Positions 47,529 to 64,000 of a DNA stretch of 64,000 nt are shown one piece after another. The first letter of the stretch is position 1; each line of letters opens with the position of its first letter. The position numbers and the translations under genes were made by a program. The notes beneath the pieces are model-generated. The model was not told the DNA's origin, did not search any database, and saw only the letters and a list, made by a program, of their open reading frames with translations. This stretch comes from Agrobacterium sp. RAC06 (GTDB taxonomy: Bacteria > Pseudomonadota > Alphaproteobacteria > Rhizobiales > Rhizobiaceae): positions 2,882,501 to 2,946,500 of the forward strand of contig NZ_CP016499.1 of assembly GCF_001713475.1 (NCBI RefSeq), read 5' to 3'.

Positions 47529-47544
47529 GGTTTCACGTGAATCA
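47529..47544. other. parS-like centromere site A (2 mismatches to consensus)
   Basis: GGTTTCACGTGAATCA, compared with the bacterial parS consensus TGTTTCACGTGAAACA: differs at position 1 and at position 14. It shares the unusual T at position 14 with the sites at 56326 and 62600. It is intergenic, between the nitroreductase stop and the gyrB terminator, about 10 kb from the candidate oriC. Confidence 0.55.
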
Positions 47545-55489: not shown

Positions 55490-56346
55490 GCATGCGCCTC
55501 GATGTCGTCGAGCACGAGTTGGCGCAACTCAGCAGTCACTTCGGGCTTTTGTCCGAACCATCGTTCAAATCCAGGCACGGCCTGGTGCAGAAGCATGCCG
55601 AGACCATCGACCGTCGGCAGACCAATCTGCTCTGCCTGCTGAAGGAAGGGTGTCTTCAAAGGGACGTAGACGATATCGGTGACAAGGGCGTCATTCTTCA
55701 TCCTGTCAAAGGGAAGAAGGGGCGCAGCCGTGCCATCCATGCCCAAAGATGTCGTGTTCACGAACAGCCCGGCACCGTCCAGAAGGGAATTGAGGGCGTC
55801 CATGCCGTGCGCATGGAGCGGTGCCCCAAACCGATCTGCGAGTTCCTGCGCGCGCTCTATCGTCCGGTTGACCACATGGATTTCAGAGATGCCCCGATCA
55901 CGAAGAGCTTGGAGAATGGCACGGCTGGCCCCCCCTGCTCCCAGAACCACGGCGCGATCGACCTTATCCCATCCCGGGTGCTGTGCATCGAGATTTGCAA
56001 CAAAGCCGATGCCGTCGGTGTTCGTCGCGTGCAGCAAACCGTCTTCACGCCAGAGCGTATTGGCTGCTCCGAGCTCTTCTGCCACCGGGTCAATCCGATC
56101 GACAAGTCTGCTCGCCGCCTCCTTGTGCGGGATCGTGATGTTGCCGCCCCGATAGGGGCTGTCTGCGTCTTTGAGACGAAGCATGAAATCGCCAAAGTCC
56201 TCCGGGGCCACCGCAATCTTCTCATAGGTACCCGGCAGACCGTAGGCTTGAAGCCAGTGCCCATGGATCACAGGCGAGCGAGAATGCTTAATTGGATAGC
56301 CGGCGACAAAAGCACGAGCAAAAGATGTTTCACGTGAATCACGCAT
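55486..56346 (-). CDS. aroE: Shikimate dehydrogenase
   Basis: Reduces dehydroshikimate to shikimate in aromatic amino acid synthesis, 286 residues. Shikimate-binding [17 protein letters not shown] and [12 protein letters not shown], catalytic Asp in [11 protein letters not shown], and NADP-binding [13 protein letters not shown]. The start ATG 56346 overlaps the maf end by eight bases; codons 2-7 (DSRETS) coincide with a parS-like sequence, so this N terminus may be partly constrained by DNA function. Confidence 0.95.
56326..56341. other. parS-like centromere site B (1 mismatch), inside the maf/aroE overlap
   Basis: TGTTTCACGTGAATCA, one mismatch (T at position 14) to TGTTTCACGTGAAACA. It lies within the 5' codons of aroE and includes the maf stop codon (56339-56341). 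It is about 1.5 kb from the candidate oriC, typical of ParB-binding sites. Confidence 0.7.
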
Positions 56347-56969: not shown

Positions 56970-57791
56970 TTAGCGCGGCTTGGGACGCAGAGCAACAATC
57001 GCCGCCGCCGTCTCCTCGATCGACCGGCGCGTCACGTCGATCAGAGGCCAGTTGTTGCGCGCACACAGCGAGCGGGCATATTTCAGCTCCTCCGTGATTG
57101 AGGCCCGGTCGACATACTCGCTGCGGTCATAGCCTGTTGTCGCGCCAAGGACCCGGTTCTCGCGAACCTGGGAAATCCGATCCGACGTGGCGATGAGACC
57201 AACGATCAGAGGCCGCGTTGCTTTCAGCAATCCTTCGGGCAGTGGAACGCCCGCGACGATCGGCAGGTTCGCGGTCTTGATGCCGCGGTTGGCGAGATAG
57301 ATGCTCGTCGGGGTCTTGGAGGTGCGGCTGATGCCGATGATCACGACATCGGCCTGATCATAATCCTCCGGCGCCTGGCCATCGTCATGGTCCATGGTGA
57401 AATTCAACGCTTCAATGCGTGCGAAATATTCGGCGTTCAGAACATGCTGAGCACCGACGCGGCCGCGGGACGGCGCGCCCAGATAGTCCTGAAACTTCTC
57501 GATGATCGGGGCCAGCACGTTGACGCAGGGCAAGCCCAGTTCATGACATCCCGTTTCGACAAGTGCTGCGAGATCCTGGTCGACGATCGTGTAGAGCACG
57601 ATACCGGGTTCGCGATCGAGCGCATCGATCAACGCCTTGATCTGTTTCTTGCTGCGGATCAGGGGATAAACATGCTCGATGGCATTGGAACCGCGAAATT
57701 GCGCGGCGGCTGCTCGGCCTGCCGAGATCAGAGTCTCGCCCGTTGAGTCAGAAATCAGGTGGAGATGGAAGAAGTTTTTCCGGTTCTCCAC
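56970..57791 (-). CDS. ppsR: PEP synthetase/pyruvate phosphate dikinase regulatory protein (DUF299)
   Basis: Bifunctional serine/threonine kinase and phosphorylase that controls PPDK or PEP synthetase. The 273-residue protein has [15 protein letters not shown], the P-loop [18 protein letters not shown], and [19 protein letters not shown] 57791 gives the usual start [14 protein letters not shown] 57800 is also in frame. It reads away from the candidate oriC and heads the ppsR-maf-aroE-coaE-dnaQ run. It fits with pckA elsewhere in the window as part of PEP/pyruvate control. Confidence 0.93.
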
Positions 57792-58196
57792 GTTCTTCAC
57801 CGCACCCTGTTGATAGTCTGGGATAAACAGAGGCCACGGCGAGCGGGGCGGACCAGGCGCGGGAAAAGTGTCGATTTATCCACAATTGGACCCCGAGAGG
57901 CTCTCGATTCCAGGGGGCTGTGAATTACGGTAATGACAGAAGATCGTTCTTAGCATTTCGACTCCTCCTCCTCCGTTAACCCGGATTCTGTCCGGATCGC
58001 AAATCCATGGAATCACGGGTTAATTTGCAGTTATCCCCATTATCCCAGAGCCGGAGCGAACTCGGTGGCCTCGACTATCGACTGAAATCCCGGATTGCGA
58101 ACAAGCTGTGATCGTCGATTAATCCTTGATAGTCAGAGACTCTTAGAAATAGAAGAAGATTCAATATCTCTTTTCTTTTTTGAAAGGGCTTGAGCC
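57792..58196. other. oriC: Candidate chromosomal replication origin (oriC) between ppsR and hemE
   Basis: A 405-base gene-free gap. Contents seen: a perfect DnaA box TTATCCACA (57876-57884); TTATCCCCA (58031-58039), one mismatch; two weaker TTATCCCAG copies (58040-58048, and 57818-57826 on the minus strand); a CtrA-like TTAA-N7-TTAT (58020-58034) overlapping a DnaA box; an inverted repeat TTAACCCG/CGGGTTAA (57976, 58016); six GANTC methylation sites (57906, 57960, 57984, 58010, 58138, 58158); and an AT-rich, T-rich tract at 58140-58182. The hemE-adjacent position is that of oriC in Sinorhizobium meliloti and Caulobacter. Confidence 0.8.
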
Positions 58197-59228
58197 TTGA
58201 GCACGCCGAACCGAAAAGTCCTCGACGTTCTGAATGGGAAAACGGTCACGCCACCGCCCATCTGGCTCATGAGACAAGCAGGCCGTTATCTCCCGGAGTA
58301 TCGGGAAACACGGAAGAAGGCCGGGAGCTTTCTCGATCTCTGTTACTCCCCCGAGTATGCGACGGAGGTGACCCTTCAGCCGATCCGCCGATATGGCTTT
58401 GATGCAGCTATCCTGTTTTCGGATATTCTGGTCATCCCGGATGCGCTTCATCGCAACGTGACCTTCACGGAAGGCCATGGTCCGCAGATGGACCCCATCG
58501 ACACGGACGGCATACTGGCGCTTTCGCAGGAAGGCGTCCTGGATCACCTCAAGCCGGTCATGGAGACGGTTTCACGGCTGCGTGGGGCGCTGCCCAGCGA
58601 AACGACCCTGCTTGGCTTCTGTGGGGCTCCCTGGACGGTGGCGACCTACATGATCGCAGGACATGGCACACCCGACCAGGCGCCTGCCCGTCTCTTCGCC
58701 TATCGTCATCCGGAGGTCTTTGCCCGTCTCCTCGATTTTCTCGCCGATGTCTCCGCCGACTACCTCGTCGCGCAGATCGATGCGGGTGCGGACGCCGTTC
58801 AGATCTTCGATTCCTGGGCAGGTGTTCTGGGCGAGGCAGAATTCGAGGCTTTCGCCGTGCGGCCCGTTCGCCGCATCATCGACTCGGTCAAGTCGCGTCG
58901 TCCTCAGGCGAAGGTGATCGCCTTTGCCAAGGGCGCCGGCATCTTGTTGAAGAATTATCGCCAGGACACCCGTGCTGACGCCATTGGTCTCGATTGGTCG
59001 GTTCCCTTGAGCTTTGCTGTGGAGCTGCAGAAGGATGGTCCTGTTCAAGGTAACCTCGATCCGATGCGTGTGGTGGCCGGCGGTGTAGCGCTCAAGGACG
59101 GGATCGATGCGATCCTCCAGGCACTCGGCCATGGACCGCTGATCTTCAATCTCGGCCACGGGATTACGCCGCAGGCTGATCCGGAGCATGTGACCGAGCT
59201 CGTCGCCCAGGTTCGGAGTTTCGGCTGA
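58197..59228 (+). CDS. hemE: Uroporphyrinogen decarboxylase
   Basis: Decarboxylates uroporphyrinogen III to coproporphyrinogen III in heme synthesis, 343 residues. Active-site block [32 protein letters not shown] with the catalytic Asp, [13 protein letters not shown], and [10 protein letters not shown]. The start is TTG 58197 with AAGGG upstream; alignment with related HemE (xxxxxRKVLDVLxGK) supports it and there is no suitable ATG nearby. It begins right at the edge of the candidate oriC and is followed two bases later by hemJ. Confidence 0.96.
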
Positions 59229-61264: not shown

Positions 61265-62602
61265 GTGAGTGATCTCGTGACCGCTCGTTCCGATACGATT
61301 TGTGCTCTTGCGTCCGGCGGTTTACCCGCCGGCGTTGCTGTTATCAGGGTCAGTGGTCCTAGCAGCTTCGAAGCCGTCAGTCAGATGGTTGGCTCACTGC
61401 CCGAACCGCGCCTGGCAGCCCTGCGGACATTGCGGACCACGAGCGGTGAGTTTCTTGATCGGGGTCTTGTTCTCGTTTTCCCAGCACCCAATTCCTTCAC
61501 CGGTGAGGACTGTGTGGAATTGCATCTGCATGGTGGCCGCGCCGTTGTGAACGCGGCACTTCGATCATTAGCCGGATTCAACGGGATTAGATTGGCCGAA
61601 GCCGGAGAGTTCTCGAAACGCGCGTTTGAAAACGGCAAGATGGATCTTGTCGAGGTCGAAGGTCTCGCCGATCTCCTTAGCGCCGAGACCGAGATGCAGA
61701 GAAGGCTTGCGGGTGAACAGGCCAATGGTCATCTGTCCGCTGTCTACGACGAATGGCGTGAGAAACTTGTATTCGTACGCGCCATGCTCGAAGCAGAACT
61801 GGACTTCAGTGACGAGGGCGACATTCCAGGTTCGGTGTCCGATCGTATCTGGGCCGACGTCGGCGAGCTAAAGTTACAGGTGGACCGGGCAATCGGCAAT
61901 CTTCGGGCCGGCGAGATCATCCGTGATGGTTTCAAGGTGGCCCTTGCCGGCCTGCCGAATGCCGGGAAATCAAGCCTGATGAATGCGTTGGCGCAGCGCG
62001 ACGTGGCAATTGTGACACCTGTAGCCGGTACGACGCGCGATGTTGTTCGCTGTGAACTGGACATCGATGGATACAAGTTTGAACTCTCCGATACTGCTGG
62101 TCTCAGAGACACAGACGATCTGGTTGAGCAGGAGGGGATCCGTCGTGCCTTCCGGACGATCAATGATGCTGATCTTGTTCTGCATCTGATCGATCTGTCC
62201 GAGCAGCCGAAAGCGCAGCCGATAGATTTCGACCGCCCCACACTGTGTATCGGGACGAAAAGCGACCTTGCCAGCGATGTAGTGCCTAATTCTGCTTGCG
62301 CTTTCCACGTGTCGTCCGCTTCAGGAGAAGGGCTTGATGTCCTGAGAGATCGGCTGCTCGATGCAGTGCGTAGCCATACTCAGGTCGAGAGCCTTGCAAT
62401 TCCCAGTCGTTTGAGGCATGCAGAGCGCCTTCGGTTGGCGTCGAGACATCTTGCGTCCGCGCTGGAGGGCATTTTGTTACCTCTCGAGATCCGTGCCGAA
62501 GAATTGCGATTGGCGTCCGTCGAATTGGCGCGAGTGACCGGTCGAATCGATACCGAAACGCTTTTGGGTAAAATCTTCTCCGAATTCTGTGTCGGCAAGT
62601 GA
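61265..62602 (+). CDS. mnmE: tRNA uridine-5-carboxymethylaminomethyl modification GTPase MnmE
   Basis: With MnmG it installs the cmnm5 group on wobble uridine of certain tRNAs. The 445-residue protein has the folate-binding N domain ([21 protein letters not shown]), the embedded G domain with P-loop [14 protein letters not shown] (from 229), [13 protein letters not shown] G2 ([10 protein letters not shown]), DTAGLRDT, and the C-terminal farnesylation-like FCVGK tail with catalytic Cys. The start is GTG 61265. Its stop codon (62600-62602) forms part of a parS-like site. Confidence 0.97.
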
Positions 62603-62615
62603 TTCACGTGAAACA
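62600..62615. other. parS-like centromere site C (1 mismatch), overlapping the mnmE stop
   Basis: On the minus strand TGTTTCACGTGAATCA, one mismatch to TGTTTCACGTGAAACA; identical over all 16 bases to site B at 56326. The mnmE TGA is its first three plus-strand bases. It lies 16 bases before mnmG and about 4.4 kb from the candidate oriC, and in many bacteria parAB lies just downstream of mnmG-rsmG. Confidence 0.7.
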
Positions 62616-62630
62616 GGCTGTATCGCGATC

Positions 62631-64000
62631 ATGTCTGAGAGACATTTCGATGTAATTGTTGTTGGTGGTGGTCATGCCGGTACCGAAGCAGCCGCAGCGG
62701 CTGCACGCATGGGTGCAAAAACCGCGCTCGTGACCCACAAGGCTGAAACAATCGGCGTCATGTCCTGCAATCCGGCGATTGGCGGCTTGGGAAAAGGGCA
62801 TCTTGTCCGTGAGATTGATGCGCTTGACGGCATCATGGGTCGCGCGGCGGACGAGGGCGGCATTCAGTTTCGTATGTTGAACCGGAAGAAGGGCCCGGCT
62901 GTTTGGGGGCCGCGCACGCAGGCGGATCGAAAGCTCTATCGACGGGCTGTTCAGCGTTTGCTTGCGGACATTCCTAATCTCGACATCATCGAAGGTGGCG
63001 TGGTCGGATTTGTTCGTGACACTACCGAAATAAATGGTGTGATCCTTGGTGACGGGCTGCAACTTCGTGCTGCAGCAGTCGTCTTGACAACCGGTACCTT
63101 TCTCAACGGTGTGATCCACATCGGTGACAAAAAGATTGCTGCCGGCCGTGTTGGCGAGGCCCCTGCCCTGGGTGTCAGTGATGACTTGGCAGCGTTGGGC
63201 CTGAAGCTTGGTCGCCTCAAGACCGGGACCCCTGCGCGCCTCGATCGCAAAACGATCCGCTGGGACGAGCTTGAAGTTCAGGAAGCGGATGAGAATCCCA
63301 TCCCATTCTCATTCATGACGGAAACGGTCACTACGCCACAGATCGCTTGCGGCATCACGCGAACGACGACTGAAACCCATCGGATCATCCGGGAGAACAT
63401 CCACCGCTCGGCCATGTATTCCGGCCAAATCGAAGGTGTCGGTCCGCGGTATTGTCCTTCCATTGAGGACAAGATCAATCGCTTCGGCGATCGCGATGGT
63501 CATCAGATCTTTCTGGAGCCGGAAGGATTGGATGACGACACCATCTATCCAAACGGGATCTCGACCTCGCTTCCGGAGGATGTCCAGGAGCTATTCATAC
63601 GGTCAATCCCTGGCCTGGAGAATGTCCGAATCCTCCAGCCGGGTTATGCGATCGAGTATGACTACGTCGATCCACAGCAGCTCGACCTATCGCTGGCTGT
63701 TAAAGGTGTGAAGGGTTTGTACCTCGCTGGTCAGATCAATGGCACCACTGGTTATGAAGAGGCTGGCGCGCAAGGGTTGCTGGCAGGGATCAATGCAGCC
63801 CGGCTTGCAGCCGGTCAAAGTGGTTTCTCCTTCAGCCGTACGGATTCTTATATCGGCGTAATGATCGATGACCTGACATCGCGCGGCGTTGCAGAGCCCT
63901 ATCGTATGTTTACCTCGCGGGCCGAGTATCGGTTGTCGTTGAGGGCTGACAATGCCGACATGCGGCTTACGCCCTATGGCATTGAGCTTGGTTGCGTATC
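62631..64000 (+). CDS. mnmG: tRNA uridine-5-carboxymethylaminomethyl modification enzyme MnmG (GidA), 3' truncated by window edge
   Basis: FAD-dependent partner of MnmE; about 456 of the usual 620-odd residues are in the window. Rossmann motif [22 protein letters not shown] near the N terminus, then [25 protein letters not shown], the GGTYLNG-type [47 protein letters not shown], and [19 protein letters not shown] near the end. Start ATG 62631. The frame is open to base 64000. Confidence 0.97.

Follow-up and report, generated by a model that had tools for sequence, protein, structure and literature searches.

A candidate chromosomal replication origin between ppsR and hemE in Agrobacterium sp. 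RAC06, with GANTC sites in a conserved low-stability block

Conserved elements of the ppsR-hemE gap

In the window, i.e. the whole stretch of 64,000 nucleotides that was analysed, the divergent genes ppsR (PEP synthase regulator family) and hemE enclose an intergenic gap that corresponds to positions 2,940,292-2,940,696 of the chromosome (C1; 4,641,140 bases). The features of this region are compiled in Table 1. A position between divergent hemE and ppsR (COG1806), here assigned by NCBIfam, is one of the marks by which we judged a hemE-type alphaproteobacterial oriC. Further out, coaE, dnaQ and gyrB follow on the ppsR side and hemJ, rho and mnmE beyond hemE on the other (NCBIfam); mnmG was read from the sequence itself, without an NCBIfam search, from 62,631 past the window end. 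A previous sequence-only reading had called this the longest gene-free gap in the window, and a mechanical ORF tiling agrees (396 bases; runner-up 345), its value being 396 instead of 405 because it took a ppsR start 9 bases upstream of the likelier one. The sole DnaA-domain match in the genome is located about 424 kb from the gap. Among the best 80 named loci used for comparison, Rhizobium rosettiformans W3 is the closest named relative (HemE 91%).

Table 1. Positions of genes and sequence elements in and around the gap, in window coordinates.
Feature	Positions	Strand	Basis or remark
Candidate oriC, intergenic, divergent ppsR/hemE	57792..58196	.	405 bases
ppsR, left flank of gap	56970..57791	-	NCBIfam
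hemE, right flank of gap	58197..59228	+	NCBIfam
Left DnaA box CTATCAACA	57808..57816	-	2 mismatches
Central DnaA box TTATCCACA	57876..57884	+	exact
Weak DnaA box TAATTCACA	57919..57927	-	2 mismatches
DnaA box TTATCCCCA	58031..58039	+	1 mismatch, partly conserved
Putative DNA-unwinding element, near-invariant core GACTCTTAGAAATAGAAGAAGA	58118..58177	.	stability and conservation
GANTC site	57906..57910	.	position kept in 4/30
GANTC site	57960..57964	.	position kept in 8/30
GANTC site	57984..57988	.	position kept in 1/30 (own only)
GANTC site	58010..58014	.	position kept in 8/30
GANTC site GACTC in block	58138..58142	.	30/30 own-genus loci (own included)
GANTC site GATTC in block	58158..58162	.	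GANTC in 24/30 own-genus loci (own included)
parS-like site	47529..47544	.	motif match, 2 mismatches
parS-like site	56326..56341	.	motif match, 1 mismatch
parS-like site at mnmE end	62600..62615	.	motif match, 1 mismatch

The perfect DnaA box and the degenerate copies announced in that reading are both present. With up to two mismatches the gap contains four sites, a cluster beyond chance: its score of 8 compares with a shuffle mean of 0.97 and was reached by 0 of 1000 shuffles. The exact box by itself is weak evidence, because the whole genome holds 11 exact copies, and was dropped as proof of an origin. In 957,500 sampled bases, 21% of the chromosome, the highest-ranking 405-base frame (score 11) overlaps the gap; it begins 146 bases ahead of the gap, whose own frame scores 8, and the next separate place scores 7.

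From 36 genomes of the genus 35 loci were obtained (own included); the remaining genome is 66% complete and gave no match. Thirty of them (own included) form the footprinting alignment and the other five were added for the spacing counts. The gap length varies only from 398 to 406 bases in the 35 loci, in all of which the TGTTGA motif of the left box starts 16 bases off the ppsR start. The central box is exact at its aligned column in 25 of the 30 loci, and CTGTGGATT is frequent in relatives at the aligned position of the weak box. The distance from left to central box is 68–69 bases in 31 out of 31 loci in which the central-box pattern matched, and in the same 31 the central box lies 255–264 bases from the block core. 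Three islands are conserved, with mean pairwise identities of 0.90 (left box), 0.97 (central box) and 0.87 (hemE-side block) in the 30 loci, compared to only 0.41 between central box and block. This conserved spacing would reflect a fixed nucleoprotein geometry.

Of all 60-mers in the gap, the one with the lowest stability begins at 58118, in the hemE-side block. Compared with separate places throughout 177.5 kb it comes second, and it thereby provides the low-stability, AT-rich region looked for in an oriC. The AT-rich tract described before is thus a real low-stability tract adjoining hemE, in a gap that overall is only about half A+T. Eighteen of the 20 columns 58138-58157 are invariant among the 30 own-genus loci. 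A 34-base model of the block, for which 17 origins from other families served as training set, was applied upstream of hemE to the best 80 named loci, 41 with a divergent ppsR and 39 without. It scored above 8.6, a threshold picked after the scores were seen, in 27 of the 41 (14 remaining not above it) versus 1 of the 39, where some test families may overlap training families and the 39 are phylogenetically clumped and not independent, because they are mostly Rhodobacteraceae and Bradyrhizobium relatives. Judged by these sequence comparisons, the block goes with the origin, that is with ppsR-hemE adjacency, more than with hemE alone. In a Cohaesibacter locus (L125) an unwinding block is found upstream of hemE at 2382-2415 and no ppsR was found beside hemE; here ppsR may have been lost from an origin that retained hemE.

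GANTC sites in the hemE-side block

The gap contains six GANTC (CcrM) sites, compared to a rate per 405 bases of 0.42 overall and 0.93 in 253 non-ORF gaps. This is the highest count of any of these gaps (next 4), although a shorter one, of 162 bases with three GANTC, is denser. Only the two sites within the block hold their position in the genus, the other four being kept in 1–8 of 30 loci. Across the 24 loci that share the second block site, its N is T in 19, G in three, and A and C in one each.

A set of 47 origins was assembled from our own locus, 17 loci of the order and 29 of the 41 named ones, 12 named near-duplicates having been removed; loci of the order without a detectable ppsR in the stretch examined were left out. 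Their hemE-side 150 bases contain 91 GANTC versus 35.7 expected from dinucleotide shuffles (maximum of 300: 54), with at least one in 39 and at least two in 31 of the 47 origins. N is A in 33, T in 23, C in 20 and G in 15 of the 91 sites. As controls, GATC, GAN3TC and GAN4TC were close to expectation and GAN2TC below it; the palindrome AGNCT, which overlaps AGACTC, was enriched, with z values of 4.2 for the gap as a whole and 4.5 close to hemE. One or more GANTC lie no further than 130 bases from hemE in 30/30 own-genus, 15/17 order and 34/41 named loci, compared to 8/39 of the ppsR-less loci (best 80 named loci). Three of 58 listed origins have no GANTC (L094, L105, L176). The RAMA domain, which is not proof of CcrM, was found in 42 of 43 genomes searched, and the genome without it (G066, locus L135) still carries three GANTC. 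A comparison of CcrM with GANTC presence is therefore uninformative and was discarded as a test.

Could the conserved block belong to hemE instead of an origin, as its promoter or leader, perhaps under the control of GcrA and CcrM? It does end close to the hemE start, two reports attach importance for replication in Caulobacter to transcription of hemE or at the origin (PMC4287350, PMC8959179), and L125 keeps the block without ppsR, with L136, a contig-end locus, looking alike. However, the block model stays at or below 8.6 in 38 of the 39 ppsR-less loci of the best 80 named, in which GANTC is depleted upstream of hemE to 0.40 of expected. Furthermore, no sigma-70-like pattern was seen in 57700-58300, and a promoter leaves the DnaA cluster, parS and the chromosome position unexplained. 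We therefore regard this explanation as unlikely. Still less probable is that the strongest conservation marks a non-coding RNA encoded in the origin, similar to CcnA, a transcript of the Caulobacter origin for which a role in S. meliloti has been proposed (PMC8959179). Against this reading, a search of 57000-59000 gave no Rfam match with E up to 1, nothing resembling a promoter or terminator was seen in 57700-58300, and the middle of the gap is 41% identical.

Chromosome-scale markers

Allowing two mismatches, the whole genome yields seven parS-like sites, all of them at 2,930,029-3,020,465 of C1 and thus around the gap (2.9405 Mb), whereas the backwards control pattern gave one forward and one reverse match in the genome. 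Five of the seven are at most 16 kb away from the gap; the others include sites at 3.006 and 3.020 Mb. With the same tolerance the 16-base dif core has a single match on C1, at 671,718 (two mismatches), nearly opposite the gap. On a circular C1, two arms of 2.27 and 2.37 Mb would separate the gap from 671.7 kb, and the gap would miss the antipode of the dif-like site, 2.992 Mb, by 51.8 kb (1.1%). By motif matches, then, parS is near and dif opposite, as looked for around an oriC. For the 24-base dif consensus nothing was found in L076 at up to three mismatches. The second replicon, C2, has a dif-like core at 221443-221458 with one mismatch, a better fit to the pattern than the C1 site.

The polarity of KOPS inverts at dif, according to PMC13342612. 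Near the dif-like core, KOPS are forward at 670,500 and 670,730 and reverse at 672,994-681,853, with one more forward at 685,620. Among the matches listed for forward GGGCAGGG (100 of 236), 86 have positions below 686 kb, and the 2.15 Mb that follow hold the other 14. With the dif-like site held fixed, 153 of 174 GGGNAGGG in the sampled stretches fit an origin at the gap and 159 one at 2.996-3.000 Mb, the average over all tested origin positions being 121.6. Between the gap and 2.998 Mb there are seven KOPS with the sign of the ppsR arm versus one other; from 2,945,661 to 2,995,001 of C1 (window position 63161 onward) this sign prevails for about 55 kb past the gap. A similar lag is seen on the hemE side of two relatives, with 9 versus 3 sites across 60 kb in G015 and at least eight forward sites (forward only) across 55 kb in G010; the three genomes are not independent, because many sites may sit in shared genes. 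Weak constraint near the origin is the sole explanation we can offer.

The GC-skew check proposed with the sequence-only reading was made on 40 sampled stretches, three of them with masked bases, and the skew is weak. Of the 20 stretches along the arm of hemE 19 have a positive skew, but only seven of the 20 along the opposite arm have a negative one, and over the 177.5 kb the cumulative GC curve reaches its minimum near 2.912 Mb, 28 kb left of the gap. GC skew was therefore dropped as proof of an origin. On the ppsR-side arm, four stretches at 1505001-1870000 of C1 have a positive skew (0.017-0.035), contrary to the expected sign, and KOPS there are still mostly of the expected one. Taken together, the strand bias of GC skew and KOPS leaves an uncertainty of about 60 kb in the position of the switch.

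A true origin some 55 kb away, near 2.998 Mb, with the gap as a relic or a DnaA-regulated promoter, would suit the best-fitting KOPS switch, the antipode of the dif-like site and the parS-like sites at 3.006 and 3.020 Mb, but is very improbable given that DnaA-box scores are 0–2 in 10 out of 10 1-kb stretches of 2.979-3.001 Mb, that the best 20 DnaA-box clusters all lie more than 20 kb, and the 12 least stable 60-mers all more than 15 kb, from 2.998 Mb, that the local cumulative GC and TA minima are on the opposite side of the gap, and that most parS-like sites cluster at the gap.

The candidate origin and its relatives

The geography of parS, dif and KOPS, the top-ranked DnaA-box cluster and the conserved elements at fixed distances concur. 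On these sequence features, we consider it very probable (roughly 95%) that the ppsR-hemE gap is the chromosomal oriC of this Rhizobiaceae bacterium near Rhizobium rosettiformans. The earlier proposal that the window straddles the chromosomal origin is thus supported, by the parS-like sites, the convergence of KOPS on the dif-like core, the DnaA-box cluster and the constant spacing. This oriC sits at the location expected for its group and is ordinary in kind, a known type of origin.

The chromosomal oriC of Sinorhizobium meliloti likewise lies beside hemE. The Caulobacter crescentus Cori occupies the interval between the same two genes, hemE and DUF299/COG1806 (ppsR), as the sequence-only reading had held; it measures 404 bp and includes DnaA boxes and an AT-rich region, according to PMC1914354. 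That paper also describes five CtrA sites and an IHF site, in contrast to the gap analysed here. Of the several TTAA-N7-TTAA CtrA sites of a Caulobacter-type Cori the gap holds one CtrA-like version, TTAATTTGCAGTTAT at 58020-58034, with one mismatch. The site noted in the sequence-only reading therefore exists, but is at chance level, as 11.8% of shuffled gaps also have one (chance 0.118) and only 9 of the 30 own-genus gaps (own included) have any. CtrA control of the gap is thus unsupported and was rejected. A Caulobacter-type IHF site was rejected too, since the consensus WATCAN5WTR is absent from the gap; it is present in 8 of 30 own-genus gaps. In S. meliloti, PMC4433202 reports no CtrA motifs or CtrA binding at oriC, a reported likeness to our gap. 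We also rejected a basal unwinding system of DnaA box and DnaA-trios, defined after PMC8287927 (box with up to two mismatches, spacer 0–16, at least three 3'-NAN-5'; box-to-trio orientation partly assumed): the gap contains no such arrangement, one weak case begins within ppsR at 57784, and 15 of 30 own-genus gaps have it versus 21.6 expected under a rough random model.

At the oriC proposed here, DnaA would bind the conserved pair of boxes near ppsR, 68 bases apart and in opposite orientation, together with the weaker inner boxes. Across some 260 bases, a distance that hardly varies, the complex would reach the low-stability block adjoining hemE and would melt it. Two forks would then leave the origin, one via hemE-mnmE-mnmG and the other via ppsR-dnaQ-gyrB, and ParB on the flanking parS sites would partition the origin region.

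The less expected feature is the conserved, easily melted block carrying sites of CcrM, a cell-cycle DNA-methylating enzyme. Several GANTC motifs have been published for the Caulobacter origin as well, in PMC3973325, which further states that CcrM overexpression leads to over-replication and that ccrM deletion left initiation control intact. An earlier modelling paper assumed that re-initiation needs a fully methylated origin (PMC2217572); judged by these papers, the literature on a role of CcrM in initiation is mixed. CcrM is reported to be essential in other Alphaproteobacteria (PMC6090056). Open-access listings showed no paper that treats GANTC in the unwinding element for the class as a whole, which is not proof. 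The 13-mers of the Escherichia coli oriC are alike in that they melt easily, adjoin DnaA boxes and contain an adenine-methylation motif (GATCTNTTNTTTT according to PMC1914354; GANTC here). They differ in the methylase site, and the parallel is no more than a resemblance. It is conceivable, if rather doubtful, that alphaproteobacterial origins share a methylation-marked unwinding element, in which selection would hold GANTC in the melting block while N drifts and CcrM methylation would tune DnaA-driven opening, as a counterpart of GATC in the E. coli 13-mers. Perhaps such tuning matters in rhizobia, with CcrM reported essential, although CcrM is dispensable for initiation control in Caulobacter.

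With this origin fixed, the replichore and gene-dosage coordinates of the Agrobacterium sp. RAC06 genome would be fixed, and its layout is ruler-like throughout the genus. The methylation-marked block is the part of the locus worth testing: the enrichment of GANTC in the melting block of many alphaproteobacterial origins makes it a testable question whether a hemimethylated origin affects re-initiation outside Caulobacter.
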